Of a DNA stretch of 64,000 nt, positions 3,617 to 40,457 are shown piece after piece. Made by a program: the position numbers and the translations under genes. The notes under the pieces were generated by a model. The model made no database searches, was not told where the DNA came from, and was given only the letters and a program-made list of their open reading frames with translations. Numbering within the stretch: the first letter of the stretch is position 1; each line of letters opens with the position of its first letter. Origin of the DNA: Blastocystis hominis (taxonomy: Eukaryota; Sar; Bigyra; Opalinata; Blastocystidae); assembly GCF_000151665.1 (NCBI RefSeq), contig NW_013171820.1, positions 404,444-468,443 on the forward strand. Reading direction: 5' to 3'.

Positions 3617-4378
3617 TTGTGTGAAAACAAACAACAAGACTATCAAGAAGAATATTACGTAATAATAATATACAATATTTATAGTACATATACACTCTCA
3701 ATCCTGAGAGAACGCTCAACGCAAAAGGAAATGTCTCAAAGCGAGCTAAGCGGAATTGGCAACCGCTAAAAGCTGCAAATCAGAAAATGAAAGACATATG
3801 ATAGAATGCCTGTCTCTTCTTCTTCTTCTTCTAGGCTTAATCACTACAAAACGTAAGAATCATTCACAAGTATAGGAAACTCAATAGGGCTCAGAGTGAG
3901 CTAGGCAATCCTCATAAACATCAGATATAGGGAAGCCAAATTCTTCATCGCCACTATGAATTTTGTGCAATCAGAGTTGCTCTAAAGTAGTTTTCCTCAA
4001 AGAGGGTCAGAACAGGTCTGTGTTATTTCATCAGATTGCCAAAACCATAAAACCAGATTTCCTTCATACCTTCATTGTCTCCCTAGCACAATGATTCCAA
4101 GCACAATTCAATAAAGCACTGGATCGATAGAAACAAAAAATGAGGTTTTGTAGAAACCCTCGCATGAGGATGCTCACAAGAGGGTGCATGGCTCCTTAGT
4201 TCCTTATTACGATTTTCTGCAACAGAAAATTTTTGAGAGCATGAACCCACTGATTCAGAAATCGATTCCAACCTCAAATTTGTAATTTTACAAAAGAGCT
4301 CCTTTTTTTGGATCATCATGAAACAAAAAAAATCGTCTAATTTTGTCAATAGACATTATCAAAAAGCCGAGAAATTGA
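3617..4378. other. Intergenic stretch, no supported gene
   Basis: About 760 bp between the divergent GH99 and Rrp6-like genes. It contains a CTT repeat (around 3820) and a minus-strand open stretch at 4083-4349 (up to 88 aa, no good ATG). A possible spliced small minus-strand gene (ATG near 4355) could not be made consistent. It probably holds the two promoters. Confidence 0.4.
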
Positions 4379-6241
4379 ATGGAAGAAGCGAAAGAGAAGT
4401 GCGGCATTATGAGCGAAGAGTTCAAGCAACTCTTGAAAGAGTCGAAAACGGTACCGCTTGGGAATCGCTTTCTGAGTTTTAGTTATGTGGTTCGATACCT
4501 ACACTTGGAGACTACAGCTATTTTACTGCCTTCCCAGAGTTTACTACGATGTGCAACATGATAAAAACTACGTGTATTCAGTCTTATCAAGAGCTTTTTG
4601 ATCTCGTATTCGGTCTCCTATCTCTCTCAATGTAGTACGAACCGAATAATGGTTTAAGTCTTTTGGAAATTCCCGCTCTTGAAAGTGGTGACGAATTTGA
4701 AGTGATTCGCCAGTTAGAAGACTATATGTTTGCATTAACAGATGCATGCCTAAATAAAGCCGATTCTACTCCAGCGAGTAGTTCAGACGTAGATGTATTT
4801 CTGCTGCATTTGGTTGACGATAGAACCTTATAAAGGACGTGCAGGAGGCAATCCAGACACCGCTCATCAACTACACCATTACGGAGAAACCCCAAGACCG
4901 TTTCGGCGACCGTGTCGATGCTCTGGATCTGAACTTTGCCCCCAAACTTCGTGAGAAACACAATGCCCGCAAGGAATGGGTCTACGAAGGTACTGTTTTT
5001 TTGTTGTCTGCTTTTCGCTAGACATCTCTCGAATTCCGGGGATCTTCTTCCAAGACGACTATCAACGCGAGCTAGGCATCGACCCGCGCACTCAGCTGAT
5101 CTCCATCTACCGGAACCCCTACTCCTACGAGATCCACAGTCCTCCTTTTTTTCTCTTCTTGCTGACGCCCAGATTTGGAGTTCCCCGACTGGGAAGTGCG
5201 CGGCGATCTGGGCGTGCCGCCTTCGTGCAGCCTGGACGACACGGTCGTGGAGTTCATCGACACGGAAGAGAAGATCATGGATCTGATCGCGAGGCTGAAA
5301 TCCTTCCGCTGCATCAGCGTGAGCGTGATCCAGCACAGCTATCGCTCCTATCTTGGCTATTGCAGCATGATCATGGTGGGCCGTCGATCCAATCCGATCC
5401 ATCCTTCTAGATCAGCTCGGGCGAAATCGACTACGCGATCGACGCCATCGCGACGCACAACAGCTGCTGGAAGCTCAACGACCTCTTCACGAACCCCTCC
5501 ATCGTGAAGGTCATGTTCAACGCCGGCGACCAACTGCTCTGGCTCCAGCGCGACTTCGGCGTCTTCATGGTCAACCTCTTCGACGTCCAAATGGCGCTCA
5601 AGCTCCTCGACGAGAAGCAGACCAGCTTCAGCGACGTCCTCATGAACCGTATGAACGAGTACATCAACATGCGATTCCGGAGAGCTGATTGGCGGACACG
5701 GCCGCTCACCGCGGGAATGCTGCGCTTCGCGCGGCAGACGGCGCACTCGACGCTGTATCTGAGCTCGATGGTGATCGAGCAGCTGCAGAACGAGTCGGAG
5801 AAGCACATCAACCGAGTGGGAGATGGGCGTGTGGGTGACGGGCAGATCGTGGAGACGCTGGCGGCGTGCAATGAGCTGTGCTTGGAGACGTACCACAAGC
5901 CGGTGCAGACGTACGAGACGGGGGAGTCGACGATCGCGGAGCTGGGCCAGATCTTCCAGCCGGTGCAGAAGATGCTGTTTTTGTCGCTGTACTATTGGAG
6001 AGACGTGGTGGCGCGCGAGTAGGCCAGCGAGGCTGGGGTCATGGGAAGGCTGGACGAGAGCGTGCAGTATGTGCTGCCGCTGCTGCCGCTGCTGAAGGTG
6101 GCGCACGCGGTGCCGAAGACGAAGGAGGAGCTGCGGAGACTGCTGAGCCCGCTGTCGGCGACGGCGGAGCAGCGGCTGGACCGACTGTTCAGCATCGTGG
6201 AGAGCTGCCGGTCCGAGAAACTGGTCGAAAAGAACGCGTAG
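4379..6241 (+). CDS. Rrp6/EXOSC10-type exosome subunit, catalytic residues missing
   Basis: Nuclear exosome 3'-5' exonuclease family. Seven GT-AG introns (4476-4510, 4606-4635, 4813-4844, 4990-5021, 5139-5172, 5376-5410, 6005-6031; 27-35 nt) give about 545 aa. Domains in order: PMC2NT-like N-terminus (FTAFPEFTTM, LFDLVFG type), the conserved INYTITEKPQDRFGDRVDAL linker, a DEDD exonuclease fold (QHSYRSYLGY, VKVMFNAGDQLLWLQRDFG, ADWRTRPL) and an HRDC-like domain (ESVQYVLP). The active site is gone. The Exo I D-x-E position reads SVSV, the Exo II aspartate is Gln, and Exo III Y-x3-D reads F-ARQ-T. So the protein is predicted to be a structural exosome subunit or an inactive paralogue. The last intron (27 nt) also removes an in-frame TAG. 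The C-terminus may be longer than shown (see the next gene). Confidence 0.85.
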
Positions 6242-12522: not shown

Positions 12523-15500
12523 TTACTTTAACGAAGCCAGCGACGTGTGCAGCATCTGCGCAGACGCTTGGATGCCCGAGTTCTCGCCCTACACCATCAT
12601 CCCACGTTTGCGCGGCTACAAGGATCAAATTCTCAAGATACGGCAGCAGCGCGTCTCCGTAGCCCGACTTCTGCGGATACACAGCCTTCATCCGCTGCAA
12701 GAAATTCAGCGCATTGCGCACATGCAGCACCTCCTTGGCCTGCAGATCGGAAACGATAATCACCGAAATGAGCTTCATCCAGTGATCATAGACCTACCCT
12801 CGACGCCCTCGCTCTGCCCTACCTTCCTGAACAAATCGTAGCTGAACGTTCCGTTTTCGGGCTGCTGAATCGACTTCAAAAAGCACGGATTGCCCTCGCT
12901 CCACTCCTTATACACCGAATCGCTGTCGTTCATGCGCGATAAATCGCCGAACAGCTCCAAAAAGAACACGGCCAGATTTAATGATTCGCATTCGGAGGTT
13001 GCGCGCAGCAGCGGCATCAGCACATACAGCGAGCGTCGTACGAACGTAATAAAGTCGAAATTGGGCGTATGCCACTGCACGAGTTTCCGCACGAACCGCG
13101 CCGCGAAGAGCGCGTCCATCGGCGAAGCCAAAAGACGCGGCAAAACGCAGAACTGAATGAACACCGGGATCGCATCAGAGCTTCGAAACAACGACTTCAT
13201 GACGCTCTGCACGGCCTTCTAAGCGTCATCCGCTCTCTCCGCGCTCACCTCGACGGCTTCGATGTGCGTTTCGATCCGCTTCTCGTCGCCCTGCAGCAAC
13301 TCGCGCTGCTGCCTCAGCCGCGCGATCTGCTTCCCGATCGACCGATCGCTGCGCGCCGCGCTCCGCTCCTTCTCCTTCTTCTCGATCGACGCGTCCAGCT
13401 GGCTCCGATACGCCGCGTAGCACGGCGCGGGCAGCTCCAAATCCGCGTAGCGCAGCATCCAGAACCCCACGAACCCGCCAAAATCCAGCGTCTCCCACAG
13501 AGAGGGCGGGTAGAACCGCTTCAACGCCGCGGCGAAGGACTCCGTGGAGACGTCGCAGAACGCGGGGAGCGGCGCGGAGCGAAGGAAGAAGGCCTCGCTG
13601 TCGCAGACGGCGCGGAGCAGAGCGAAGCCGTGCGCGATGCTGAGGTGGAAATCGGCGAAGAGAGCCTCGGGAGTGCCGACGAGGCGAGAGAATTGCTCGA
13701 TGAAGGCGGGCTGCTGGTCGAGAAGCAGCAGCAAGTGGTAGAAAATGTCGGTGTGGCGGTCGAACTGCGCGCTGAGCGCGTTGAGGTCGCTGCAGTCCAG
13801 CTCGAACGGCAGCTCGTCGATCTTCCGCGCGTAGAGCAGGAGGAAGCACTGCAGAATCTCGGGGCGCAGCAGCTCGTTGAGGAGGAAGGTTCCGTCGGGG
13901 TCGGGGCTGCGCTCCTCGGAAAAGCCGATCATTTGAGCGAGGATTCGCGAGGTGGCGAAGGAGTAAACGATGTCCATCGACACGGCGGGGCTGATCGCGT
14001 CGCGTGGCGAGGGAATCTACACGGAAAGGAAGAAAGCAACGCGGACGCTGCAGAGAGACGCGATGAAGTTGCTGACGATGAGCATGGGGTTGGCTTCGCC
14101 GTCGAGCAGCTTCTTCTGGATGCAATCCATGAGCACGGTGAGATCGACCTGCGCGCGGAAGAGCTTCACGAACGTCACGATGAACTGCGTGAGGAATAAG
14201 AAGCCCTGGTTCGGCAGCGCGTCCGGACCGAGCGAAATCTGGCGGCTCTGCAGGTCCTCGACGATGCAGAAGAGCCCGCAATCGACGCCGAGCGGAGAGA
14301 TGAAGGGGAGATTGGGGAGCAAAAAGCCGGTGAAGTTGTCGAAGGTGGTGCATTTGGAGAGAACCATGCGGAAGAAGTAGAGAGGACAGGCGTAGGAGTA
14401 GAACGTGAGCTCTTCGGACATCGCTTTGACGGTCTCCGAGGCGATGCGACGCAGATAGAAGTCGATGGCGAGGTAGTGTCGCTTCATCCAGAAGAACAAA
14501 TCGACGTCCTCGGTGAGCTCCTTGCCCTGCCAGAACGAGTACAGCGCGAATCGGTCGGGCTGAGGCAGGCGCTGCAGGCCGTTCCAGACCTCCACGTTCA
14601 TCAGACTGCAGGGCTGGCCGAAGGAGAGCGCGGGCAGCAGGCAGAACTGATAGATGGAGAGGACGGATGTGCGGCAGGACGAGGCGAGCGAGGGCTGCAA
14701 TGGAAGCGAGAGAGGGAAGAGAAACCTCGGAGAGAACGAAGGAGAGCAGTCTGCAGAGAACGCTGAAGAAAACGGGCTCCTCGGCGAGGTGGCCCCCGAT
14801 CCAACGCAGCGGTTCTTCGAGGACAGAGAGCAGAACGACGGGGTCGGAAATGCGATCCGCGTCGTCCAGATCGCGACACTTCCATCTAGATAAGAATAAA
14901 AAGACGAGCTCTTACCCGAATGGAGAGAAAGAAGTGGATGAATTGGCGGGATTGGATTCATTGAATTCATTGGATTCATTGGATTCATTCAATCTGAAGA
15001 GCAGGGAGAAAGCGGATGGGATCTTCCTGTACACACAACTCGACATATCCACCAGCAGCTTGCAAATCGCTTTCACGAATGCCATCCACCAGCAAGGATT
15101 CACTCCACTCTCTCGCACATGCTTCCAGATTCGCATTACCGCGGGGAACGACAACACCGAACAACCCTCAATGAGAAAGTTCACCAGATTGAGTGTGGCA
15201 GGACTGGGAACCACGGCGTGGGGAGACGAAGGCAGATCACCGCTCAGTTTCTTCATGGTCGAAATGGCCTCGTAAAGCTGATTTGTCTACAGAGAAACAA
15301 ACTATCCAGAAACTACGCGCGACTGAGCGAATTCACGCAGCTTTACTTCCTCGCTGGCGAAGCTGGACAAGATAGAATCGAGGGAAACGAATCCATCGCG
15401 ACAAAGCTGGGCGGAGAGAAGCAGAAGCGAAGAAGGCACCACACCGTCCTACATCTCATTCCATCGCTTTTCAATCACGTTGTGTGTCTGATAAAACACA

Positions 15501-16969: not shown

Positions 16970-19900
16970 ATGTCAGAGCTCGTGATAGAACTATTCTTTC
17001 TAGCTCGAGAACAGAAGAAAAAGTATATAATACAGAAAACTACAACGCTGGAAGATTTGAGACAGACTATCACAGTTAGGCAAATATAAATGATTAATGA
17101 TATAGAGGGACTTCCGCTCAGAGTTTGATGACTTGTACTTTATAAAAGACCACATGATTATTAACAAGTCGAAATCTTTGGACTCTCAATGTGATGAAGG
17201 AGATCTTATCTTAATCAGTCAAATCTGTGAATATAAAACGACGTGGAAAGGCATTCGAAAGAATTTGTCTTACTTCAGTAACACTTATTGGAGAAATTTG
17301 TATGTTTTTATTTTGAACGAGTATGCTATTTCGCTAACCGATATCAATAAATATAAATTGAAAGCAAAAGGTCAGTTCATCTCTCTGGAAGCTTTAATCC
17401 CATTTGACGGTTTTTCTGATGTAATTGAGGTTATTGAGATACAAGGTAGATGTTTAAGGGTGAGAAGTAAAGTTGTAGGGAATGAATGCCAATCATCGAA
17501 TCTGGATGTACATATCGGTATAGAAATGTAGTTCGATTGAGTAATATAGTAAACACATGTGATGACGAAGAAGAAAATGACTTACCTGCCGAATTAAAAG
17601 ACAAGGAGAATGAAATAACTGGAAACTTCGATACAAGGCAATCGAGTGGGAAGGAAGCAATTGATTCGTAATCGATGATTGATTTGGAACTATTCAATAG
17701 TGAAAATGAAGATCAGAAACATCATATTCGAGTGTTTTGTGAAGGCAGTGAAGAGGAAGAGGATGTCGTATCTTTTGCAGACTCGATGACAGTGAGTCAA
17801 CTCATAATTGAAATGATAGGATCCGAAAATGACAATATATTTGTAACAAAGAAAGGAAGCTCTTTTGTTCTTGAGGGTGAAATTACAACATCCATAGATG
17901 TAACAAGTAGGCTATATAGGTTATTATCCAGCAATAGTGTATATGCACTCAGATAATCCAACGATTAAGCTGAGTATTACTGACAACTCTGCCAAACCTT
18001 CCTCTAACTCCCCTTGCTCTATGGAGTTTCTTCTAGATGTGAGAGGATCAGAAATAATCGAGCTGTTTGGATACAACAGAGACGACGTGTTGCTCTGCAA
18101 AGAGAATGGAGATACATTGAATTTGGACGAATCTGTGTGGTCTCAGGGAGTTGGGAATGAAGATAATCTGAAAAGTAATCAATTTGATTGATTTGAGTAA
18201 TATTGCAGTTAAGAATATTTCAAACACTAAACAAAAATGGGTAGTGTTGAATGATACAAGAAAGAGTATCATAGAGAAGTATGAACTGGATGAGTCGAAA
18301 ACGGTCAGAGACTATCTGTCAGAATATTGGATTGTATTTTTCGTGGATTATTAATAATGTAGAAACACGAGAAGAAAAAATGGAATCACGTTATTGAGAG
18401 AACTCTGATTATTACAAATACTAAGGACAAGAAACAAGTAACCATGGATACAACGATATCATCTTTAAATGTGGATGATACATTAGAATTGGAGAGTGTG
18501 AATAATTAAGTTAGATAAAACTAAGTAACATGGAAAACCGTAGGTAGTCTTGCAAGACCTCCAATTAACAAACCCAAACAAACAGAACCACCAAAACAAC
18601 CCAAAGCCGATTCTTTAGAAACACCCAAACCTACCGAGCAACCAAAAAGAATAGTCACAGCTTCTGACCCTATTTCTAAAACTATTGAATTACAGGTTAT
18701 TCAATGCTTCTGTAATACGAATAACCGATCATCCGTAACAATTTACTCCAATTCAGTAAAAGTCCTAACAGATTTAATCAGCAATTTCATAGATGTTTCT
18801 GTTATTTTTGTATATGAACGAATAGAGAGCAATGAAGTTGCCACCAAAAGAAAAAGGGAAATGGATAATGTTGAATCAAAATGGCAAAATGACAACTCCG
18901 CTAAATATAGCAAAAACCACTGAATCAAGTGTTTCAGTGTTTATCATCCCTGTTCATCAGACTTATTTGTAGAAGAGTTTAATGGATGTTAAATTTCTTG
19001 AGTTCAAATCTATTGAAGCCACAAATCCTTTTTCTAAAGAAATTATATATACAAGTAATACGATTCCTAGTACGACATATCGAGGAACTTGTATTGGAGT
19101 TTTCATTACTTTTCTGTAGGGTACATGTCACGCTATAATATAACACAATTCAAAACAATTCTATCGGATCCACGTTGCCAATCCATAAAGAATGTGATTG
19201 TATCGGGTAGTTTCTTTTATTATGTGTAACTCATAGACCAGGTGAATAATGTGGAAATCGAAATCAAGTATGGAAAAGATCGGTCATCCATAGCATTTAC
19301 CAGCATTCGTTTTCCATGTATTAATTGTTAGTGATATTAATGAATAGTCAAAACTGTTTCCTTAAAAGGAATAAATGAAATGGTGGACTATTTAAGCAAA
19401 AATAACCTCATTCCAATCATAGAGTTCAGGATTGTATTAAGTATGATATATTGTTTGTATCATTATTATTAGACAAAAAAGAAAACGAAAAGCATGTAGA
19501 TACTGTTTCTCACAACTGTCGAGTGGTAATAAATCAAGGAATTGCTAAATTTGACATAATTGTAAACAATAGAAATGTGATGGACACTGAGGAACAATCA
19601 ATAGAACCAGAATATAAAAGAAACAGATTCGTATCAATTGGTATTTTTCGATTACCATTATAAGAAATAGAGCCGATTGATTTTGAAGGACACGACTTTG
19701 AAATAGTAGAAAACAATGAGCGAAGTTATGGAAATGATGAATCGATTTTGATATATGAACATGGAACAAATCAATGTGTTTCTGAGATTTTCGATTTCTT
19801 GAAAGTGAATTATGACCAACCTAATGCTAGGAGTTTTTATTCTCTTCAATCTGCTTTGACTGATGGATGTGATTATGCTCATATGGGAAATATGATTAAT

Positions 19901-22900
19901 TTCAGTGGAATACCTCACTTGCAGAAAGAAGAAACATCATTCATTCTTCCACTAATCAATCATGATGAAGATCAAACTCATAACATCATTCCTGAAACAA
20001 TCTATTTCCACTGCATTTCTGGAGTGAAGAATGCTACGATTGGCATTTTGTCTCCTCTTGATAAGAATAAGGTTATCACTGTATTATGCAGATTTAATGT
20101 GCTCATTTTCCATTCCACAAAAGAGCGTGTTCGACTGATAAAGGCAATACGCTCTGATAGAGAGGATTGGGAGTATATCGAATCGAAAGCCTATCGATAT
20201 GTGGAAACAATGAAAGAAGATCCTCCGTTTATCAGAGAAACAAATCAAACCCGAATTCGAAATCAAATCGTGGAAGATGTGATTCAATACAACATTCCAG
20301 TGGTGATTGAGGGAGTGACTTCGTCAGGCAAAACATTCACGGTGGAGCAATACTGTCGACGTTCTCTCGTTCCCTTTGTGAGATACAACTTCAGTCCTTC
20401 GTCCACAACTGAGGAATTGCTTGGAGATATGGTGATTACGAACGATGATACAGAGAAGATCAAATTCCAGGACGGAGCTTTCACGGATGCATTCATTCAT
20501 GGCAAACTGCTATTGATGGATGAAATGTCTCTGGCTCCTCCTTCTGTGGTTCAGAGTGTGTTATCGTATTTGTTTGGCAAGAAGATTCTCCATGAAGGCA
20601 AGGCTGGAAGTGAAGAACGTGTAATGCATCGAGATTTCCGCATTATTGCTACTCAGAATCCCGCTGGAAGTTCATACAAGCGAAACAATCTGTCTTCTGC
20701 AATTCGCGATTGTTTCCGATTTGTCACTCACGATTCAACGAAACAGAAATACTTCCCAATGATTGAAAGAGAGGAAAGATTGGATATCATAACGGCAATG
20801 TTTGGAGGAGATACAAAAATCGGAAGAAGAGTGTGTGAGATTCATGATCGAGCTGATAATCGAAAGAATGTGTCTGGAAGAGAGATTGATAAAGGGAAGG
20901 ATTACACACTTCGAGATTGTAGTCGAACAAAATGGATGATGGAGACACTGATGGAAAAAGAGAAAATCGGTGAAAGCAAAGCATTGGATCGAGCTTTACA
21001 AATCGCATACAATGAAGATTTGAGAACAAATCCAGTATTCAAAGCGGATATTACTTTCAGCAAAGCTGCTCTAGACAAGGAATGCTGGAAGGATGTGTAT
21101 GATCGAGTTCGACTAGGATTGGAATCTGGATGTCATGTTCTATTGATTGGAGAAACGGAATATGTATCTCGAAAGTATTGTCGAGCAATAATGGAGATAA
21201 TGCAGAATGAAGGAACATCCTGTGAAGTGATTCATTGCAGTTCGACTTCTTCAACAGAAAGTGTGATTGGAAGCTATTCGCTCGAGAAAGATGATGATGA
21301 AGGCAAACCAGTTCCTCGTTTCTGTCCTTCTCCATTGCTTACAGCGATTGAAAATGGAGGTATTTGTGTTCTTCAATCGATGCATTTGATGAAATCGAAT
21401 GTGATCGAGCGATTGAATTCTGTGTTGGAATTATCACCTGCAGATGGCCATCATCATGTAGTTCGATTTGATGAACGTCGAGAAAGACCGGAATTCGAAA
21501 TGAGTCCCGAATTCCGTGTAATCGCAACAACGTCTGAGAAAGGTTTACTGGCATTTTCTCCTGCCTTGAGAAATCGATTTTTGGAAGTATTTGTGAGTCA
21601 TGAAGATGCAAAGCGATTTGAAAACTCTCCCAAACTGGGCAAATGTACAAGAGATGAAATTGGTGAAGTGATTCATGATTATTCTCAAACAATCGACTGG
21701 TTCAATCAGCAAGAACTGCATCAAATGGCTTTTTTCGCTACTTATTTGGCTGGATACGAATTGGATGAATATCTGATTGAAATGCTCGCTAGACAACCAC
21801 CAATTCCTGAACTGCAATCCCTTCGAAGCCATTGGCATGAAGCTTCGAGATTGTTCTATTGTATTTGTAGGAACAAGGCTGTGGCATTGTGTGGACCTAG
21901 AGGTAGTGGAAAGTCCTATGCAATTCGGGAAATCATCAATAAGCTCTATATCAGAAGCTATCAAGTGTTCAGTGTATCTGGAGAAACCGAATTTTCCACT
22001 TTGATGGGAAGTATGGATATGAATGGCGATTTCCGAGCTGGAAGATTACTTCAAGCTGTAAAAAATGGAGAATTGGTGATATTCGAAAATGCTGAAAACA
22101 TGTCAGCAGAATTACTGGAAATGCTTGATACTGTTTGTGATCCTTTCACTGATGAGTTCACTTATCCAGCTACTATCAATCATTCAATTCATCCTTCATT
22201 CCGAGCTTTGTTCGTGTTCACAACACGTCGAGTGAATTCGTTGCCTTCTCTTCCTGCTTATTTCGATATTTGTAAAATGAGTCCAATCCAGAGTGCTGAA
22301 GCGAAAGAGCTGATGAATAGTGAAATCTGCAAACGATTATGTGATCATATTGATAGTGGTGAGATTCCATTGAATGAAGTATTTACTCTGGATAAGATTT
22401 GTTTCAATTCTTCTCATCCAATTTGGAGAGTGGCAGCATTGTTTGCAGATCGAATGGATCGCAAAGAATTACTTGAGAGAGTGATAGAAGAATGGAAAAA
22501 GACAGCTGATACGAAAGTGAAAGAAGAATTGGAAATGGCGAATGCGGTATTGTCAACTCCAACAGTAACAGCAATAAAATCCCCAAAGAATGAATCTAGT
22601 TCATTGCTTCAACGTGGTCCTCTTCAAACAACAGTTCCAATTGAATACTCATTATTGAAAGGTGTTGATATGGCTGTGTGGGCAGCATTATTTACTATTT
22701 CCATTTCCAACTACAAGCAAACTCATCTTCCTGTGTTATTGGTTGGTGATTCAGATATTGCTTCTGAAGTCACTCATTTGCTGTTTCCCAATGCTGCTCA
22801 TATGGAAATGTCTCGTTCAATGGAAATGTCTCACACATTTGGTGAGATTTCTGTTTGTCGCAAAGAAGACATTCAATACATTCTGAGACAAACATCGATC

Positions 22901-25900
22901 CAAAATGTTGATGGAACTCTAATGGAAGTATATCGAGAGTATCTGAAGAGGTTATTGTATGGCATGGCAGATTATGAATCATTGCTCATGATGCGTCCTG
23001 GTCCGATTCTCCGTTCGATAATGAGTAACAATTCGATCGTGTTGAACAATATCAATCTATTGAATGACCGATTGCTTCCTCGATTATATTCATTGTTGTT
23101 TAGTTTGGATTCGCAAGAGTTTAGTCTATTTGAGGATTATTCCCAAATTCAACCAGAGATTCTTGGTAAATCTGTGAATGCGATTGTAACATGCGAAGAT
23201 CCAGATTATGGAAGAGTTGCAAAGAAAGACCAATTCATTCAAGTGTTTTGTCAACCCTATTCTGAATTAGAAAGGGCGAAATATGAGTTTGAAAATCGAG
23301 ATGACTATCCTTTGCACATTCTACGAAAGTCAGATATGCTGAGGAATGAATTTGTGAATGCTGAGAAAGTGATCCCATTCTATCTTCGATTCCTTCAATC
23401 TGATTTGGTATCTCGAGAGAATCTGATTCAAATGGGAATGATGAATAAGGATTTGGAGGAAGTAAGTGAATTCCTTCAATCAAGCAACAAGGATGATGCA
23501 ATGATAGAAGATTTGAAGCAAACTCTATCATTCCTATTTACAAATGATGTAATTGATTATATAGAATCCAGTCTTCAATCCAAGCATCCATTACTTCCTA
23601 CAAAGACTACAATTCAGTTATTGGCATCCATTGTATTGGCAGATCGAAGTCATCTTCCTCTGATTCTTGAAGGAGATCCTGGAGTAGGCAAAACCGTTTC
23701 TGCTGAGAATTATTTCGTAAAGGAGAATCTTGTATATAAGCGAATCAATTTTTCGAATACCATAACGATTGATAGTTTGTTTGGATGCTATACGATTGTG
23801 AATGGATCATTACAATTCAGAGATGGAAGTATTACAGAACTATTGAAAAGAGGAGATCATCCAGATCAACGAATCGCATTGTTATTAGATGAAGTGAATT
23901 TGGCTCCATCAGATGTGCTTGAAGTATTACTCACTCTGATTCGTTGTTATGTGAATCACGATCCATTCCAAGTTCCAGGAGGCGATTTGATCAATATTCC
24001 ATCGAACATGCTGATCATTTGCTGTATGAATCCAGCATCCATGTCAGCAAATCGCAGTACATTGCCTCGTCAATTCTACAAGTATTGTATTTATCATCGT
24101 GATTTGAAATACACATTGAATGAATTGTTCTTCACAGCTCGTCAAATCTTGAGTAATGTAATGAAGTCGGAAGATGAATCAACAGAGAATCAGATTCTTG
24201 ATTTGTTTGAATATTCCTACAACTCCTATCAAAAGACATCGATTCCATTCTCACTTCGAGATGTATTGAAAGTGGATCAGATTGTGAATAATGGAAAAAA
24301 CCTATCATTGGAAACTGCTTTATGGTTGGTGTTTGCTTGCCGTTATGAAGAATCGGAGAGAAAAGAAATCGAGAAGATATTGAAGCTGGAAGATACATTG
24401 AAAGTCGATATTATCAAACAAGACGAACAATGTGTTGTTCGTGGTTATTGGGACATTGAAACACAACAAATGTATTCGGGATCTTTCAAAGAGTATTGTT
24501 TCACTTCAACAGAGAAAGTGACGATATTCAAGTTGAGTCTTGCTTTACAATCCAAACGAGCCATTTTGGTTTATGGTTCTTCTCCCTCTGGCAAATCGTA
24601 TTGTATTTCGAATCTGTCATTGATGTGGGATAAACGATGCACTTCGGTGTTTTTGAATCACAAAAGCTCTCCAGATGTGTTCATTGGTCGTAATACTCTT
24701 GGAATTGATGAAAATGGGAATGAATGTATCAGATTCAGAGAAGGTCCGCTGTTGAAAGCAATGGAGAGTGGAGATTGGATTGTGATCGAAGATATCCATT
24801 TGGCAAACAATGATGTGATGGAATCGCTGAATTCTCTGTGTGAAGAAAATCCAACACTGAAGGTATTAGCAGGAAATGAAGAAATAACGTATTCAATGCA
24901 ACCGAAAGAAGGCGAAAGGAAAATTGACGAAGCATTCCGAATCTTCTTTACAATATCGGATAATACATTGAAACACTTCACTGGACCATTCTTGAGTCGT
25001 TGTGTGATTGTGTATTGTGATCCAATATCGACTCAAGCAGATGTTCAAGAAATCTGTCAAATCAGTGAATCGAGATGCGATCCTTGTAACTTTGGAAGCA
25101 AAGAATCCAGAACATTCCATCGGTGTATTCGAGTGATAAACAGCAAAGAAAGAGATGCATTTTTGTATGAATTTGGATATACATCGAAGAGAAATGCTTT
25201 GGTTTCAAAGATTGAAATCCCAAAATCAATCAATTATGAATTGTTTGAATATTTGTGCAGTGTAAATAGTTTGTCAGAACCTGATAGAATGAATCGAATG
25301 ATTGCTATAATGGAAAAGATTTGTTCAAGTACAAAGAGTGCATTTGTGATCGACGACACTGTTAAAAGATTACAAAGCTGTATAAAGTATTTTGAAAACC
25401 ATTACATTTATTATGTAATGGATTGTGCAATCAAAGTACTTGAAATGAAAGATCTACAGAATTGTATGATGAAAAAGCAAAGAGGAGATAATGCAGGTGT
25501 TCTTCGTCGTTGGTATTTGATTTCATCGATCGATCCGAAAATAAAAAGCAAATACAGAATGTCTGAATGGATGTTTAACCAAGAAATCACAATCAAGCAG
25601 TTATTTGACATTCCTACAACCGAACAATATATATATTTGGAATTGCTGTTTATCTGTGATAGAAGAGATGAATTATATAGGTTTATGGGAGAAACTGTAT
25701 TGATTGATTTCGCACTTAATGTATTTAAGTCTTTAGATACAAGTAACCGGAGTGATTTGACACAAGAAATGATGAGGGCAATTATCAATATTCGAGAAAT
25801 CTATTTGGATGTCCTAAAAAGAGAAAGCTATTTAAGAGACAAAGCAACGTATATTGATTGCATGAATCTTCAGAATTCAATTCAGTTAGTGAATCGATCC

Positions 25901-28900
25901 ATTGAGTGCTTCCCTTCTGAGATAAGGAAATCATGGAATGTGAAGGAAATAATCAGCACTCTTAATACAATCGAATCTGCTGCTAAAATGTGTGTTAAGG
26001 AATGTAATATGGATGATGACGATGAGCAAAGAATGAAGTTCAGATTTACAGAAGCAAAATACAGTTGTAGAAAGAATCAAGGACAGGCATTTGAAGATAA
26101 GATGATTGATAGCAAGACTAACATGTCTTTGATGTTATATGTAAATGAGTCAAGGTATACAAAGTATGAATATAAATCGAGAGCAAATCAATTCATTGTA
26201 AAAACATCTTATTTCATTTATAAACTGAAATCATTCAAAAATTATTTATTCATATTGAGTGAATATGCAGATGTATTGAATCGATTGGAATTGAATGTGA
26301 CAGATATATTAAATGAATTCAGGAGTTTTTCAATTCTTCTTCCTCATTTATTGAAAATGTTGAATGTATTGCTGAAAAAGGAAATGGAAAACTTGGATTG
26401 GGAAAGATTATTAGAGGATTACAGCGAATATCCATTCATTACTCCAGTTGCAGTAACTCAAGAAGATTTTGAAGCAGCCATCGAAATAATGTTTAAAAGA
26501 GATTGGTATAAAACATACTGGAATTCAATTGAAAATAAAGCTAAATACCGTTCTGAAGCATGTGTTGAGCTAAAAAGGAAATTGGTACGTAATTATTACT
26601 CAACCATTCAGCCCAAAGAGATTGTATTGAGAGTTCCATTGATTTTGGAGGCAGTTGATAATCTAAATGGATTAAACAAATACAGCTATTTAGAAGTGTC
26701 TCAAGTTGATGTTTGGTGGAAATGTGATCTTCCTTCTCGTGTTGAACCAGGAACTACCATTTCGAGTGAAATATTGAAAATGGAACAATTGCTTCTGCAT
26801 CCAAATGATATTCTACATAGTTCTCTGTTGAAAGAAATGTGGACACCCGAATGTCCAATGAAAATCTATGATAAGCTGGCTATAGTTTGTCCACGCAAAC
26901 GAACACTCTTAGGAAATGTTGTATTAGACATATTGAAAGTAGATATTTTGCGACGATCTCTGGAGAAAGTGATAAGAAAAGTACAAGATATTGATGATCT
27001 TGTATCAAGAGTAATAGCCACTGCTCAAGCAGATTCTAAAAGGAATTCAAATATGCCCGATAATACAACACAAAAGGAAATAATACCAGTAGAATCAATA
27101 CCCTTTTATTTCTTCCCTCAAGTTTATGAAACAAAGATCACCATTCTAAATGAAATTCCATTTGATATTGCTCTCTGTGTCATATATGAGAAAAACAAAG
27201 CATCAATTTGTCTTCCTGAAAACAAAACATTTAATCTTCCAGTTAGTTACATCGAAGAAGATGGAAATGAAATATCTATCCCATATTTTACAACAAGCAA
27301 AGAAGTTAAATTGGTTTTAAAAAGTAATGATTGTGATATTACTGAGAGTTCCAATAGATTTAGATTTGTCATGAAAGATAAAGGAATAGGCCACAAGAGA
27401 GTTAGAATAATTGCTACAATATATAGAATGTCAGATAATGATATACTAGCAACTGAAAAGTTTTATTTCTGTTATGAGAGGAAGTCATTGCCAAATCATA
27501 TTGTAACATCTGCTCCATGTTATTTATATACTGCCGCTAACTCTAATAGTAGTAATATTCTTTATCCAACAATATTACCAGTTGATATTAATGTTTATAG
27601 AAGAGGCGTGAAGAATACTATTCAAATCAATAATACAAGGGAAACTATATTATATTCACCTAAGGTTGAAGTGTCAAATACTGTAATGATCAAAGCATGC
27701 TATGAATGTGGTACAACGTTTATTTGGAATGAAGAAAGAGTATCTATTTTTAAACGAGAAGAAACAATTATCAACAAAATAATAATTCCTGAGTATTTAC
27801 ATTTGGAAAATACAACTGCTATCGATTATTTTCAATCTAAACAGTTTTGTAAATTCATTAATACGTTATTATTTTTACCCATTGTTTTACTCTCAGCGAA
27901 TAAGGAAGAAAAGCAAGTGATAGTATCAATATTATATGGATGTATGAATAATACTATTCTCCCAACCATAAAAAAAATTGCCGAAAGTAATATGAATTTG
28001 ATTTATAATCATGGATCCTTATGTAGATGGAATTATTGCTTCGACAACGATCATATTATAAAATCAAACAAAAGGAAGAGAGTCAGCAACGCAATAATCT
28101 CCTTATCAGATTGTAACAAAAAGGAAAATCAAATGTATGTAAATACAGCGAACTTTGAGGCTTATCTTGAAGTTATTAACAAAATGAATATGAATGAATT
28201 ATTCGAATTCATATATAAGCGTCGAACGGTCATTGATTATGTCCTGCCATTAAGTAATAAAAACTCTTTATCTTTTGAAAAAACTGAATTACGAAATGAA
28301 TTAATTCCGGAAAGAATTGTAGTGGCTGTTAATAGTGCATCCATTAGAATAATTGAATGGTTTAAGGGGATAGGTTGTATGAACAGAAAACCTCATTCAA
28401 CAATTAATATTATCATCGATACTAATTGTAGTTTGAGAAAGAATAAGCTCCGAATGCGAACAATTATTTCCATTATTATTGTTACAGTTATGAAAGAACT
28501 TGGCATTTTATTCAATCTGTATGTGTTATGTGGTAGATACAAAGGCGTATGTGTTTCTATGGAAAACCGATCAGTTCATGAAATCATATCGTTTTTGTTT
28601 GATATTGAAGGAGTGGTGAAAATGCCTTCAACTCCATTAGATTTACTGACAGTATCAGATCAATTCAATGTTCATGATCCAATAGTGATAATAAGTGATG
28701 GCTTTAGTGAACAATTGATGTCTCAACATGATGAAGTGAAAAGAATATTTAGGCAACACAGAAATCTGTTTTTGCTGTGTGTGAAAGGTAAAGATGATGA
28801 AGCACTGAATGTACTAAATCAACCTTCCCTTGAAATGTCGTTGAAAACTAATTTTGAAGATAATATGATGGTGATAGAAAGAATAGCTGACATAGAAAAC

Positions 28901-31738
28901 CCTTATAATATTGTTCTAATTGATATGTTCTATGAAAAGCATGAATTGGAAATGAATAGTACAATGAATGCATGCTCTTCATCAATGAGTGATCACGTTT
29001 TTCACGATGACTTGAGAGTGAAATTTACGAAGAATGAGTCGATAATATCGATTAATAGAATATCAAGCACAAAACCAGTAAATCTGGTGAATATTACGGA
29101 TAATGATCTATTAGTTGACCCCGATCCTATACACAACATGCAAGTTTTTGCTGAACTAAATCAAATAATACAAGGTGATAATCTATTTGAGGCGATGGAT
29201 CGTTCATTTTTCGTTCCTAATAAGTCGACAGCTTTAATTGCATCCACTTCAGGAACATCGCTTAATATGACAAACTATATCAAAAATGTGATTGGCAAAA
29301 CTGGAGATGGAAAGATATTTAATAGAACAGGAGGTGAAAAGATTCGAAATTACAATGCAAGTGTTGTGATTGATTGCTCTTCAATCGCGTTCAGTGAAAC
29401 AAACCGAGTTCATTCATTGATCACTATTTTTTCCATCCTTCGAAATCTGAGTAATATGCAACTGCCTTGTATTGATGTGTGGGTGGCTTCTTCTAAAATC
29501 ATTCGTATTGCTACAGGAATATCATCTATGGATTTGTGGGAAAACAATACTGTGGCTGGATTGTATTCAAGCTTGCAAACTTCTTGCCAAAATACTTGCT
29601 TGCCTGATTGTATTCGCTATGCTTGTAGCACTTGTAATGCTCGATCATTCCAGTCTATAATGATGATTCTAACAAATGGTGTTCTATGTAATGAATCCAG
29701 AGAAGAAATCAAATCGATTGTGAGTGGGATCGAAATGACCTATCTTGGGATTGGAATTGGCTTGTATTTGTGTGGATTTGAAGATTTGTTCCCCACAATG
29801 ATTTGGAATTCAAATCCAATTCGATTATCCGAAACTTTAATGCATTTAACTAGTGCTTCAATCAGTGGAAAGCAGAATGCAGTCCCAGACAAAATAATCG
29901 ATGATATAATGATGTTTGATACATTCGATAAAAAATATGATAAATTAACCCAGAAGTTATTCAATATTCCTAGTATTTATGAAACAACATTGAGGTATTT
30001 CCGATTCAAAGATGAGACAGAGGACACAATATCAGTTCCAATGATTAAAGACATAAACGACAATAGATATGATTTGGGTCTAGATGGAGCTTTTACAGAA
30101 TATTCGATTCTGTTCATTATTCTATATTTGTGTCGAGGTATTAAGGATGAAAATGGAAAGGTAATTGATGAGTATATTACTGAGGATGTATTAATCAGTG
30201 GGAAAGATATTAATGGGAAAAGATATTCTCCCATAATGAAACTTGGAAAAAATAAGAATAGCGGAGGATTAATAGGAAAGGGATTTGACATCCATTATGC
30301 TTTTGATTACAAATCTGCAATTAAAGAGTTGATGAGTGGGAAATATAGAATGACTTTTATCACTTGTTCTCCTGGAGATGGAATCATGGCAAAGAAATGT
30401 GATAATAACAATGATCAATATGCAGATGCTTTTGTGAGTTGTGTTCATGAATTCAACCGGAGAGGAGGCGGTGTATTCTGGTTTCTGGAAAACTTTCCAT
30501 TTACTTATGAAGCTGATTTGTACTTTAAGACATTCTATGGATTTGAAGCAGTAGGTGACAAAAACAAAACCATCCAAGGAGGTAAAAAAATGATCAGAGT
30601 GAAAAATGAAACACCGAGAGCAGGTCAGTTCATCACCATTGGAGGAAAGATTATGGATTATTACAATTTATCTCGACTGGATTTTGGAATAGTAAGCATT
30701 TTTGAGGGGAGAACACTTTGTACGTTAAATGAGAAGAGTTTTGTAGACAATGGCTTCCGTATATATGCAAGAGAAAGTGAAGGCAACGCTTCAATCATGG
30801 TGAGAGAAAAGCAGGAGGGAATGTTAGGAGGACGCATGATTATAGATACAGCTGCATCCAAACTGTTTTGGGAATTCACAGAAGAGGGCACAGCGAGATG
30901 GATAAGCAATGCTGCAGTGTGGTTGTGTAATACCGAGGAGTTCGAGGAATGTTTACTCTTTGATTTTAATGTGACATCTGGAATAAAAATGGAGGGATTC
31001 TCGCTGCCTAGATTAAAGCCTATGTCAAAACGAGAAAGTGATTATGGAAAAATAAGTCGCAAACAGATAAAATTTTGCTTGAGTATCGTAATGGATACGA
31101 CAGGATCAATGAGTCCATATATTAAGGCTACAAAAGAAAACATTATAAAAATCTTACAAGAGATTAAAAAAGTTGAAAAAGAGCATCATCTTCTTGAAAG
31201 TGCAATTGTGGGACAAGTTGTGCAATATAAGGACTTTAGAGATAGTTTAACCGGTGAGCTAGAAGAATACATTACAAACGATTTTGACCGACTGAAACAA
31301 AAGCTTGCTTCTTTCAAAGCAAGTGGAGGAGGAGATACTTGTGAAGATATTCAAGGAGGATTGATTCGAGCCTTGGAACAGATAATGAGGCCGGAATACA
31401 AGGAATACAATCATCTGATTCTAATTGTAGCAGATGCTCATAACCATGAAGACGGAAAAGAAGATGATGGATGTGATTATTACAGAAACGTTACATACGA
31501 AAAGAGTTTTGCATCAGTTTGGGAAGATATATATGAGATGATAAGGCAGATTAATAGTATTCGCGTTATGTTTATGCCTGTATCAAACAGATTATTATTA
31601 AAAACTGCAGGTATTATGCAATCAGTGTTGGGCACTAAGTTGGTTGACAGTGTTCCTGTAACAACGGAAACGAATTTTGCAGAAATAATAACAAATACAA
31701 CAGTAACGGAATATAAAAAGTTCATCGGTATTTCGTAA
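16970..31738 (+). CDS. Giant ubiquitin-like / midasin-type AAA / GATase-like / vWA protein (about 4,777 aa)
   Basis: ATG 16970 with 14 introns of 28-36 nt, all before 19671 (17075-17105, 17518-17549, 17668-17700, 17907-17937, 18175-18208, 18334-18362, 18496-18525, 18810-18837, 18937-18972, 19091-19119, 19207-19236, 19318-19347, 19441-19472, 19641-19670), then a 12-kb uninterrupted exon. Coding length is exactly 4,778 codons. Residues 1-780 form repeated beta-grasp-like units (TLEDLRQTI, DEGDLILI). Six AAA modules follow in dynein/midasin order: GVTSSGKT (about 969, Walker B LLLMDE), a degenerate one (1245), GPRGSGKS (1497), a degenerate one (1778), GDPGVGKT (2089, LLLDE) and GSSPSGKS (2391). 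After a helical linker come two vWA-like domains without full MIDAS motifs (3669, 3986), a GATase1/ThuA-like fold (about 4260-4430, FITCSPGDG) and a classical vWA (DTTGSM, about 4563). It resembles midasin but differs at both ends. Function unknown; force-generating remodelling is inferred. TGTTTGTT follows the stop by about 19 nt. Confidence 0.85.
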
Positions 31739-34963: not shown

Positions 34964-37900
34964 TTAATAATGAACTGGAACAACTTCAACTCTAATCTCA
35001 TTATCGACATCATTAGATTCATTATTGAGCGGTAGAACTTCAATATCAGAATCAGACATATCGAACATTCTTTCTTCATTCTCAACATTGACAACAATGG
35101 GTCCTCTTCTAGGTTCACTATTAAGTCGCATCACTTCATTATCTGAATCAGATCTGTTAAGTATATCGACTGCTGTATTCCGGCTTCTGTGTGAATGATG
35201 TCTTCTATGATGTGCATTGACTGGCAAACCTTTATTATGTGAATGAGATCTTTTATGTTTTTTCATTCTCTTATTCTCAGGATTGACAACAATGGGTTCT
35301 CTTCTAGGTTCCACATTAACTGGCATCACTTGAGGAAGAGAAGAAGATCTCTCAGATATTCTTTCTTCTCCCTTGTCAGCATTGAGATTAATAGGCTTTT
35401 TTATAGGTTCCACTCTGTGTTCCGGTTTCACACGAACAGGTTCTAGTTTACGCACAGTACGATTTAAGGAGAGATGATTTTGATTCTTTGTAGAATTTGG
35501 TTGTTTTGTTTTCAAATGCTTTTTCTCTTTTCTAGGATTCACTTTCTGATGTCTAGTTCTCGTTTTTTTAGGTCGTGTGCCGAATTTTATATATGCAACT
35601 ATGCTATTTAATAGAACGGCAATAATTAAAACAATAACAGGGACCCAATAAGCAGACATGCAGAATCCATTGATTTCGCCCCATTCTCCATCCTTTTCTC
35701 CAAGTACACAAGCTCTGGTTATTTTACCCACATATAAGTCATCCAATGGGCATTGATAAACATAAACATCACCAACGTTTGTGGCTTCAAAGATTCCGTC
35801 AGATTCGCATCTTCCTTTTCTAACAGTCATTGTGATAGTTGTAGAAATATAACCGACCTGATTCTTTCCATAGATCGTGATCCTTCTTTCATAATACGTT
35901 TCAGTTGGCACTCCAGTGATTTCTCCATTCTTAGAATTCAATGATAATCCATCAGGAAGAACCATTTCATAACCCAAATAAAACTCTTCGATTATGTTAC
36001 TATGAGTTGGAGCTTTAATACGAACTTCCTTATCTAAGATAAATTCATACACACTATTTTCATAATGTAAATTAGCGGGCGGCTTTAGTTTGCAATACTC
36101 AGAGTGAATTTCTCCCAATTGGCCGTTCGAGCAAATACGATATTTGTTTCCATAATATCCACCTCCACAATCACCCAAAGAATACTCTCCTTCTCTAGCA
36201 GAAGCATAACCATCAATTCCAGGACAAACGTCCGTTCCAGTAGGTTTGCAGTACAAGAGCATATACGAGCTCAAAATCACATTGTCCGATGCTGGAATAT
36301 CCACTTGAAACTTGAATTGTCTGAATCCAAATGTTCCCCGAGGAATCGACCAACTATTTCGTCCCAGTTCCTTTACAGTTTCGTTGGTAACTACCAGTAT
36401 ATTATCAAAAATAGAAGAGGTAACCTTCATGGCAAACAGAGAAAATCCATAATGGTCTCTATTATACACAGTCTGCATACCAAAAGCATTGAATCGAGTT
36501 CCTTCCAAATTATCTACTTTCCAATCAAGAATTGTTCCCACAGAATTTATCTGGAATCCATAGGTTGTAGGATTCAAATCAAGCAAAGTATCGAAGGTTC
36601 CCATAGAAGGAATCGTTCCAATAATTGATGAATAACTATCCAACACAATCGAACATTCATTTACTCCAAATACTCCACTGGCATCAAACACAACATCATG
36701 AGAACATGAACTACTCAAACAATAGACTTCAAATGCTATTATGTTCTTTCCGTTCACTCCTCCAACAATGCTTAGAATCACATGAAACTTTGAGAATTTT
36801 GTTCCACTATATTGAGAAATGGATAATGCTTCTAAATCGAAATTCTCATTCAGATTAAATCGAGCGACCACCCTGCCATTGAAATAGGCAACGATGCCTC
36901 CTTCATACTTCACAAGAATATTCAACACTTGATAAATATCAATATCAGGAAGATCCACTTCTTTGCGAAGGTAGGTTATGATTCTTTCGTTTTTTCCAAT
37001 CGCAGCCGCTTTCTTCGACGCCCATTCAGAATCATCAAAACTTACTGTATTCCAATTCCTTTCATATTCGTAACTGATCTTCCATTCAGTATATTCCATC
37101 TGGAATGGCAAATAGGAAGAGAACATCGTACTTACAGAAGCCACCCCGCTGGGAACCTGACCCATTTCAAAGATCATGTCACCCTTTTCAACAGTGAGAT
37201 AATAACCAGCAGGATTCGACCAACCATCACCAGCAGAATCGAATAGTTCTAGAGTGTAGATTCCATTCTCTAAACAAATGTCTACATAGTTCAGAGAAGT
37301 AGACAACTCAAAATGATCATTCGATCTTATTACAGATCCACTTGTCCCAATTCCTTGATAGAGTTTGTAGGAGGATTGCTCAGGAAATTCATCTGTACGA
37401 ACCACCAGACTGATTAACCCACGACTTTCTGTGCAAACCTCGACAGTAATAGAGAAGGTAGCTGTGGAAGTACCTCCAGTTAGCTTATTGGCAGTGATTG
37501 AATAAGTGGTAGTTCCCATCTCATTCCTTGGAGTTCCAGAAATAATGCCAATGTTAGGATCGAAAGTAATTCCATCAGGTAGAGCAGGACTGATCTGGAA
37601 ATTGTAGTAATATTCGGAGTTAGGATACAGTATATCCATAATATAATCCTTGGGAATTACGATAGAATTATATTCGAGTTCGGGAATTGTCATCGATGTA
37701 TCTATCGAATTCAAGTTTATCGTATTCAACTTCCATCCACACTTCGAATTATCACCTGTTGCAAAGTCCTCAAAACGGTATTCATGATATGCTATGCTGT
37801 TGGCAAAATAGATTGTGCGTGACCCGCCAATTTGACTCCAAGTAAGATCAAATACAGTAGTCAAAACTGTCCAATCATCATTTCCACTTCGAGCCTTCAA

Positions 37901-40457
37901 TACAAACTCATGTGGTTGTTGATCATTCTGCGTGTAGTACAATTTGAGAGTCACAGAGTTGATCCATTCATGACGATCATTATTGAAAGCGATATTCAAA
38001 TAGTTTTCAGTACAGGTTGATGAATAAATAGAAGAATCATAATATTGGCTAAATATAGATGAAGAATCACCATTGATTCCACTGTAACTAACTGCATAGT
38101 CAAAAACACGAGATTCAGTTTCGTCACTCATCAATCGAAGAGCACAATCGAAGATTGCTTCTTTCTGGTTTGCATCGGCAGCAACGATTCCAATAGCAAT
38201 GGTATTCAATCCTTGCTGAATATAATTCACAGCAAGAGTATTTCCAATTTGAACCGTCTTGATAGGAAGGGAAACTTGACGATATATAGCAGATGAGTAG
38301 CTGTTGTTATCCGAATAACTCGAAGTAGTGATCGTGGCATCCGTCAAGCCCTTTCTATATGCTTCATGTCCATTCAAATAGACAATGCATCCATACTTGA
38401 ACTTCAGAGAAAGAACGAATCCAATCGAATTGTTCATATCCAAAATAGAAAATGTCCTCTTGTACAGCTGAATCTGATTGGACGAATCGGGAAAATTGCT
38501 TTCATTTCCTTCGTTCCATCCTTCAGTGGAAGTCGATGAATACCAATCTGCTGGAATTGTTCCAAGCTTGTAATACCAGTTAGAACGAGGATGAATAGTG
38601 TATCGAGCATTGAAAGTACGAGTTGCAGCAGAACCACTTTTCATATCATATCTCATACGAAGAATCGTTTCCATTTCATTACCATACAGATAAGAATATA
38701 TGTATAAATAAGATTCTAGATACCAAGAATCAGTAGTGGATCCAAGCGTCACTTCATACTTCGATCCACTGACACAAACATTTGTTGTCCAGTCTTCATT
38801 ATTCGTCTGATTCGAATTGAAAGCAATAGACATAACCACTTCCTGAGTCAAAGCATCCTTGATTTCGAAACTCTCATAAGCAGCATTAAATTTGTAAGTA
38901 CGAAGAATATGAAGCATTGTACCAGCACATTCTTGAACTGTAAGAATAAACGATCCAGTGTATGTTCTGACACTCATAGTCGATGTTACAGTAATCGTCT
39001 GGTTTGACACACCGACATTCGCAAATCCAGAAATCACACAAGTGGAAGAATCGATTGTAAGACCTTCAGGAAGGTTTTCCGCTGAACATGAAGAGAATCC
39101 ATCGAGATCAGGTTGAATATGTACCTCTTCGTATTTTGCCCAAATAGTGTAATTGTTAGGAGTGAAAGCGATTGAAGGAGGAATTGATACGTGACAAATC
39201 ATAGGATGCAATTCATATGCCGTTACATAAGTAGAATTAACACTACTAGCAATTCGGACACGATAGTGGTTAAATAAAGAAGCTTGGTAATAGCCAGTAA
39301 ACCAGTCGAACACTTCGCCATCATACGATGCATTTTCAATACTAATCACATCCATCCATTCCGAATTGTCATTCGATCCTTGCCAATAGACTTCACTTGG
39401 TGCTGATAAAATCGATGTATAAGGCCAAATACGGATTGCATTAATGAAGGGTTTCGGTCCCTGAAAAGTGTAGGTTACAGTAGCAGGAAGATCGGAAGAA
39501 TTGGCATAATAATAGGATAGCTTATCAAAATCAATGATATTATCCACATTTGATCCAGTATCAGATTGTACCTCGATAGACTCAGCATACATAAAGCAAT
39601 TGAACTGATTAACTGAATGAGCCAGGATAGCAAGATAGGCATTGAAATCGACAGTACTTTGAGGATTTAGAAAATGAACCTCCACAGCCAGAATCGATTG
39701 TTGTGAAGCCACTTCCGAGCCAGGTCGAATGAATCCACGATAGGCAAGCTCAGAATATTGCCCAGTCGCAGCAGTAGTAGAAGAAACAGATCCATCAGGT
39801 AGATTGTCCCGATACACTTCATTCCCATTGATATAGGCAATCACTCCAGCCTTGTAGTACAATCGCACATCATAAGCAGCCATATCAGAAAGACCCACAA
39901 ACTGTTTGCGGAAATACTGAGTTCCAGACATTGCAGGAATTGGATCAGAGCCAAGTGTAGCATTTATCCAAGAACTATCGGAGAAAGAGTAATCAGTCCA
40001 TCCTGAAGAAGCACTTCCAGAGACTATTTTCCACGTAGCATTCTGTTCAATACCGTAATACAAAGAAAGAGGATAGGTTCTTCCACTCGCATCAACCAAC
40101 AAAAATTTGAATACAGCATTCCCATATTTGCCATATATAGTAAGATAAGAACCACTGGACCAACTAGTACCAGATGTAGTGAATAACACAATAGTATACT
40201 GATTATTTAATGAAGAGGTCAAGCATTGCTCAGTAATACGAGTTTCATTGTTAATAAAGCCAGAACCAGTGTAAAGAGTAGTAACGCCAGATAAAACTAC
40301 AAATATCTCATCATTCACATTTTCGTAACCAGAAACTTTTACAAATTTCATATAGGTTTGTCCAGAGTCACAAGTAATGACGCTTAGCGCAATCGAGACT
40401 AAAAGTCAGTGTTTTGTGCATATCCGTACTTAGTATACAGAATAATAATAGATACAT
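34964..40457 (-). CDS. Large single-pass surface protein with jelly-roll and putative-Ig modules (about 1,820 aa)
   Basis: ATG 40457 and one 31-nt intron (40399-40429) supply a clear signal peptide (MYLLLFCIL joined to ISIALSVITC) in front of a 5.4-kb uninterrupted frame. Without that intron the frame starts too late and lacks the signal. The ectodomain repeats a module three times: a beta-sandwich with W-x-Y-x-F-x-D-x-x-W lines (WTDYSFSDSSW), a discoidin-like part (IRIWPYTS, VYWQGSNDNSEW) and a putative-Ig (He_PIG) unit (LPEGLTIDSSTCVISG, LPDGITFDPNIGIISGTP, LPDGLSLNSKNGEITGVP). Two Cys-rich segments precede one membrane span (VPVIVLIIAVLLNSIVAYI, about residue 1,570). The tail of about 200 residues is basic, then acidic, with repeats of EPRREPIVVNPEN type and His/Arg/Ser tracts. 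Predicted adhesin or cell-surface receptor; ligand unknown. Confidence 0.85.

Follow-up and report, generated by a model that had tools for sequence, protein, structure and literature searches.

A giant AAA protein of Blastocystis hominis with a midasin-like ring, and its fourteen-copy family with near-uniform rings and diverged ends

Midasin is an essential ribosome-assembly motor, the metal ion-dependent adhesion site (MIDAS) of which pulls on the ubiquitin-like (UBL) domains of its clients; RNF213 carries a giant dynein-like ring with few active sites, while the systems that combine MoxR-clade AAA proteins with von Willebrand factor A (vWA) domains (NorQ-NorD, CobS-CobT and the ternary conflict systems) are made of separate small subunits. 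Here, we have analysed a gene on the + strand of a 64,000-nucleotide stretch of the Blastocystis hominis genome (hereafter, the window; C6:404444-468443 in a genome of 18.7 Mb and 40 contigs), which encodes a giant protein that resembles all three. In the accessible excerpts of the respective papers, the MIDAS of Rea1 binds UBL domains via an acidic residue (PMC6624252) and MoxR-clade AAA proteins are paired with vWA domains (PMC7159879). With midasin (Mdn1/Rea1), the window protein shares a six-module ring of the dynein-midasin type, a long linker and, by structure match only, a possibly MIDAS-like vWA domain on its tail; in contrast to midasin, its family has a UBL array within the same chain, continues past the MIDAS-like domain with two further vWA domains and an alpha/beta region, is without a stretch rich in aspartate and glutamate (D/E), and counts 14 copies beside a true midasin. 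With the MoxR-vWA systems it shares the combination of a MoxR-clade AAA with vWA, and with RNF213 the giant ring with few active sites; unlike RNF213, its long exon has no RING family among the Pfam matches up to E 1. The gene and its parts, all on the + strand, are as follows:

16970..31738, +, whole gene; 15 introns of 29-34 nucleotides (nt) within 17075-19670, product of 4,766 residues
16970..19640, +, front, a putative array of beta-grasp/ubiquitin-like units; residues 1 to ~770
~16970-17225, +, putative unit UBL1; SUMO match at E ~0.05
~17235-17450, +, putative unit UBL2
20285..25027, +, six-module AAA ring; residues 950-2530; both Walker motifs complete in AAA1 and AAA5, Walker A alone in AAA3 and AAA6
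25028..27034, +, linker; residues 2531-3199
27035..28285, +, fast-diverging post-linker region; ~410 residues shorter in the window copy
28286..28948, +, vWA1, possibly midasin-MIDAS-like; residues 3617-3837
29345..29839, +, vWA2; residues 3970-4134; MIDAS residues partly lost by eye
30005..30937, +, conserved alpha/beta region (GATase1/ThuA-like according to an earlier note on this DNA)
31058..31732, +, vWA3; residues 4541-4765; VWA_4 family, DTTGSM

Our search of the genome with 1,000 ring residues (905-1904) has revealed 14 dispersed matches at 89-100% identity, located on contigs C2, C5, C6, C8 (twice), C9, C14, C15, C20, C23, C24, C34, C36 and C38, as well as a gene on C13 at 32% identity. 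Ten of the 14 copies are open in one frame across the ring and the complete tail (frame length 4,024-4,552); C5 and C23 stop just after the alpha/beta region, without vWA3, and C23 also has one TAG; the ring and the tail of C24 are split over two frames; and C20, which contains a run of N, has only part of the tail.

The copies are nearly uniform in the ring and strongly diverged at both ends, which is unusual in so large a protein. In five spliced copies, the mean proportion of synonymous differences (pS) falls from 0.72 in the front to 0.11-0.16 in the ring and rises again to 0.44-0.53 in the linker and 0.74 in the post-linker region; along the tail it is 0.66 in vWA1, 0.45 in vWA2, and 0.61 and 0.67 beyond. 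In the larger set, pS is 0.132 in the ring (0.093-0.181; 66 pairs over 1,000 residues from 12 of the 14 copies, C9 and C20 having been dropped because their match is split) and 0.566 in the tail (0.156-0.695; 55 pairs from 11 of the 14 copies, C5, C20 and C23 having been dropped as partial). One duplication history with even synonymous change cannot explain this contrast, which calls for gene conversion in the ring or for an exchange of ends; the case rests on the contrast in distance and not on the rejection of a tree. Since the ring is just 37-58% identical to that of P0002, one of the relatives introduced below, its uniformity arose after that split.

Some fronts and tails of the family appear to have recombined, as is suggested by tail pairs without close fronts: C24-C15 and C34-C38 have most of their tail in common (third-position difference 0.12, versus a mean of 0.40), whereas their front flanks are 56% and 46% different (mean 50%). 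In the C24-C15 tail, the synonymous rate (dS) is 0.02-0.17 in columns 100-800, and 0.54 and 0.84 in the flanking segments. The distances of the front flank (1,120 nt), ring and tail are not significantly correlated (Mantel r 0.09, 0.10 and 0.21; P 0.34, 0.36 and 0.15) in the low-powered set of 10 copies (45 pairs) that have all three parts. Free shuffling is opposed by the pair C6-C14, with front flanks 5.3% different, which likewise has the closest placement in the tail tree (92/98, long branches), and by the two C8 copies, which resemble each other at both ends and group together as a clade in the ring tree. The approximately unbiased test on the ring does not reject the tail pairs C24-C15 and C34-C38 (p 0.486 and 0.395); the ring holds little signal. 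No positive selection was found in three tail pairs and one front pair: dN/dS is below 1 overall, with windows at 0.91, 0.95 and 1.01, which shows constraint on these pairs. A mobile element is not supported, as no 3' flank of the other copies, compared with the window only, matched the window's flank past the stop codon.

Around the copies, three side observations have been made: C5 and C23 share their last two residues with the long copies despite having no vWA3; a stray piece at C9:314482-315057 (- strand), 55% identical to vWA3, lies in the opposite orientation ~4 kb before the C9 ring match; and an open frame that looks like Rad51 stands 5' of the C15 copy, adjoining a family seemingly shaped by recombination.

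The reading that we tentatively favour, and regard as possible rather than probable, is that of a giant remodelling ATPase of the midasin type, with a ring kept uniform by conversion or exchange, a vWA1 that grips UBLs, and ends that choose the clients. ATP turnover in the ring, at AAA1 and AAA5 with their complete Walker motifs, would move the long tail, which carries the MIDAS-like vWA1, followed by vWA2, the alpha/beta region and vWA3; vWA1 would grip the UBLs of its own chain, as a latch or clutch, or those of a sister paralogue, with an ATP-driven release; the variable front and tail would select the clients of a probably intracellular protein; and the ring would be homogenised across the family by gene conversion or exchange, while some fronts and tails would have recombined. 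A latch in cis or between paralogues is the most economical arrangement, because a midasin-like ring, a MIDAS-like vWA1 and UBLs occur in one chain. The class proposed in the earlier note, an unknown remodelling machine, remains the best one; the 14-copy family, in which a near-uniform ring contrasts with diverged ends, and the possible likeness of vWA1 to the MIDAS of midasin go beyond it, the family being the less expected finding. In a more speculative form, which we consider rather unlikely, the family would be variable-constant-variable: its conversion-uniform ring would be the shared platform around which UBL fronts and vWA tails recombine interchangeably, with MIDAS and UBL ligand fused for latching within or between paralogues, in combinatorial recognition by a gut protist. 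Should the favoured reading be true, this would be a second, multi-copy lineage with UBLs in cis, showing the grip-and-pull device put to use beyond ribosome assembly, and a natural system for MIDAS-UBL mechanics. The contrast between ring and ends makes these hypothetical AAA ATPases of common gut protists, a neglected family, accessible to testing.

The gene itself is real: 15 introns, all GT-AG, of 29-34 nt and all within 17075-19670, are followed by a single exon of ~12 kb, and splicing yields an uninterrupted product of 4,766 residues. The splice model is the cheapest chain of GT..AG introns; as the splicing script permitted 26-60 nt and favoured 31 nt, the narrow intron sizes are partly imposed, while the introns of Blastocystis ST7 peak at ~32 nt in the consulted part of the published account (PMC3129679). 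In C14, the closest front paralogue, all eight comparable introns are GT..AG; counting against the gene model, the same copy read at the window's intron positions shows four gapped codons and a single stop between residues 487 and 586. A pseudogenised front, suggested by a frame 1 full of stops, has been rejected, since splicing also gives open frames in the divergent C13 gene and in four paralogues that are complete at the 5' end, where the same script, with its preference for 31 nt, places 9-17 introns of 29-36 nt. The window's own copy departs from the family pattern in being without one UBL unit (UBL3) and without ~410 residues of the post-linker region, which has 391 residues, versus 789-933 in 10 aligned relatives, with the gap at residues ~3200-3218.

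The ring is, as judged by its residues, midasin-like. The best chains in the Protein Data Bank (PDB) are midasins (E 2e-47, over five stretches), and the PDB matches with E <= 0.1 comprise midasins, CbbQ/CobS-type chains and one uncharacterised protein; dyneins are thus not the closest ring relatives among these matches, although AAA_7 (dynein motor region) exceeds its Pfam cut-off in the long exon, where AAA_5 covers five stretches. What is presumably the dynein of the same genome lies on C18. An alignment of 11 proteins has borne out the six modules and the Walker A pattern described earlier, intact in AAA1, 3, 5 and 6 and degenerate in AAA2 and 4; Walker A and Walker B are both complete in AAA1 and AAA5 only.

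Two genes on C13 are of interest in this context. The true midasin gene starts at 1303657 and reaches 1321954 or beyond; its product aligns with midasin chains, most strongly over their residues 3235-3371, and has both a MIDAS and a stretch with 58 D/E per 100 residues; the earlier caution that the window gene could be the midasin orthologue has therefore fallen away, and instead of a single orthologue there are 14 copies beside a separate midasin. In the divergent gene of the family (~703700-717500), Walker B is lost in AAA1 and Walker A in AAA3, AAA5 and AAA6 (K to R), and its product is likely a pseudo-motor, to judge from these motifs. As a side observation, this gene is a single divergent relative, with a UBL-like front, degenerate ring motifs and vWA1-vWA2, and no later domains have been seen after its vWA2.

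Three vWA folds are found in the tail by structure comparison of the predicted model, as claimed earlier. Pfam VWA_4 (PF25106) exceeds its cut-off in vWA3 (36.7 versus 27 bits) and matches all four aligned vWA3 rows. The first domain is not simply degenerate, as had been thought: by eye, vWA1 retains the D, S, T and D of the MIDAS pattern, and its best structural alignment, in a low-confidence model, is with the MIDAS of human MDN1 and fungal Rea1, which suggests with low confidence a likeness to the UBL-gripping MIDAS of midasin. The label of "adhesion-type sensor" domains is not upheld: the structural alignments of vWA2 and vWA3 are with integrin and extracellular vWA domains, a likeness that amounts to a shared fold, which shows no function. 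The alpha/beta region is modelled with beta-alpha alternation (predicted local distance difference test score, pLDDT, mostly < 70); no GATase1/ThuA family is among the Pfam families listed for the long exon, and no GATase/ThuA chain is among the best 50 fold matches in either search, which barely covered this region.

The ubiquitin-like front, also claimed by the earlier note, is supported for the family by its profile matches and is weak for the window copy. Unit UBL3, which is present in four other spliced paralogues and the divergent C13 gene, matches Rad60-SLD in four of six rows and ubiquitin in three of six at E <= 1 (best 1.4e-4 and 2.4e-4), and the PDB matches of its profile are mostly ubiquitins. 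A paralogue exon with two near-identical UBL3 units exceeds the cut-off for Rad60-SLD (33.7 versus 23.8 bits, E 3.1e-8), DUF2604 and CLU_N, and falls below that for the ubiquitin family, which is exceeded by the front of WA158_005327 from Blastocystis sp. Blastoise (33.1 versus 25.4 bits, E 4.8e-8); the latter also matches tetra-ubiquitin (E 2.6e-5). Support for the window copy is weak because its UBL1, included in a profile, matches SUMO only at E ~0.05, two front exons have no Pfam match, the predicted model of exon 2 (pLDDT 33.8) is useless for judging the fold, and UBL3 is missing. UBL4 has no ubiquitin-family match, and the units compared with each other by hhalign give a probability < 10% for all pairs. 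The number of units varies: C8 has UBL3 twice (89% identical) and the window copy has none.

Three protein searches have returned 10 proteins with the ring and a matching tail: P0001 and P0007 from Blastocystis (P0001 from B. hominis), P0004 and P0009 from Tritrichomonas musculus, and P0002, P0003, P0005, P0006, P0008 and P0045. One of these searches gave 66 matches among 1,689 scored candidates, the remainder being mostly named midasin or carrying midasin lid families; as all three depend on short words in common, a lack of matches elsewhere is weak evidence. One pattern scan found no viral relatives, and one pattern scan of prokaryote genomes no prokaryotic relatives of the tail. WA158_005327 (P0007; annotated model of 5,255 residues) has the UBL front, the ring and the tail with vWA3, at ~30-35% identity. 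M9Y10_042260 (P0004) has the ring and keeps the order of vWA2, alpha/beta region and VWA_4 (26% identity); unlike the window protein, its model starts at the ring, and its vWA1 is recognised by position only (14% identity). M9Y10_041465 (P0009) has ring and tail matches and VWA_4, and differs in having no UBL front as predicted. No description of the family was found in the literature listings and abstract openings searched, nor in the consulted parts of PMC9896827, PMC7159879, PMC5608401, PMC3129679 and PMC6624252. A single-nucleotide polymorphism (SNP) survey of Colombian Blastocystis lists, in the part available, a "Midasin-like protein" among the products with most high- or moderate-impact SNPs (PMC9896827), which is not known to be this family, and long genes gather more SNPs.

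Several results speak against a midasin-type machine with a UBL-gripping vWA1. The tail model is poor (pLDDT 49.7, predicted template modelling score 0.31); in the whole-tail Foldseek comparison, the MDN1 MIDAS ranks 36th, and the other vWA chains in the tail alignment fell on vWA2 or vWA3, so that the fit of ordinary vWA chains is given for these two domains. The vWA1 profile has no matches in the PDB, and hhalign of vWA1 against the genome's own MIDAS gives a probability of 0.9%. No D/E-rich stretch precedes the MIDAS-like vWA1 in the window protein, with at most 23 D/E per 100 after residue 2500. In their predicted form, P0004, P0005, P0009 and P0045 leave no space for a UBL front; unless 5' exons are missing from these models, UBLs in cis cannot be essential to the wider family. 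In addition, the MIDAS pattern is absent, by eye, from the vWA1 of P0004 and P0005.

Instead of vWA1, the UBL array could dock on general UBL receptors (the proteasome, p97 cofactors or deubiquitinases), making the protein a segregase or unfoldase of the ubiquitin system, the vWA domains of which bind clients. The supported units do resemble ubiquitin and SUMO, and no NLE-type family is present among the matches listed; we nevertheless consider this docking unlikely, if worth keeping in mind, as the long exon's 23 listed Pfam families include no E3, deubiquitinase or UBA-like family, and the fronts are ~30% identical between paralogues, unlike a conserved docking site. The divergence of the ends around a uniform ring, together with unit gain and loss in the UBL array, the two copies that end without vWA3, and the tail pairs C24-C15 and C34-C38, the fronts of which are not close, would suit a combinatorial recognition family with a constant motor and variable ends, active in cell-autonomous defence in the manner of NLR proteins or RNF213, or in the recognition of prey, symbionts or kin. 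We hold such a role to be improbable, given the lack of any sign of positive selection in the four pairs mentioned and the closeness of C6-C14 and of the C8 copies at both ends.

It is equally improbable, in our view, that the family is a by-product of frequent segmental duplication and conversion, with largely redundant, drifting copies. Four copies are indeed split, gapped or shortened (C5, C20, C23 and C24), and 320 duplicated blocks, with possible gene conversion, are reported for ST7 in the available part of PMC3129679; the reported blocks, however, are ~99% identical in coding parts (same excerpt), while the family is far more diverged outside the ring, its 3' flanks do not match that of the window, and long open frames and purifying constraint persist. 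That the window gene is the Blastocystis midasin orthologue has hardly any likelihood left: the similarity of its ring to midasin is outweighed by the separate gene with midasin matches, the stretch of 58 D/E per 100 and the MIDAS.

Among the neighbouring genes in the window, an open frame of 1,795 residues at 34964-40351 (- strand) has three He_PIG (Ig-like) stretches; a "He PIG protein family" stands in the same SNP table as the "Midasin-like protein" in the part of PMC9896827 mentioned above. A papain-family cysteine protease (E 2.3e-91) is located at 50398-51903 (+ strand), while a Suf/HAT-repeat protein at 48971-49810 (+ strand) and a THOC2-like frame at 14017-14988 (- strand) are ordinary RNA-processing neighbours.

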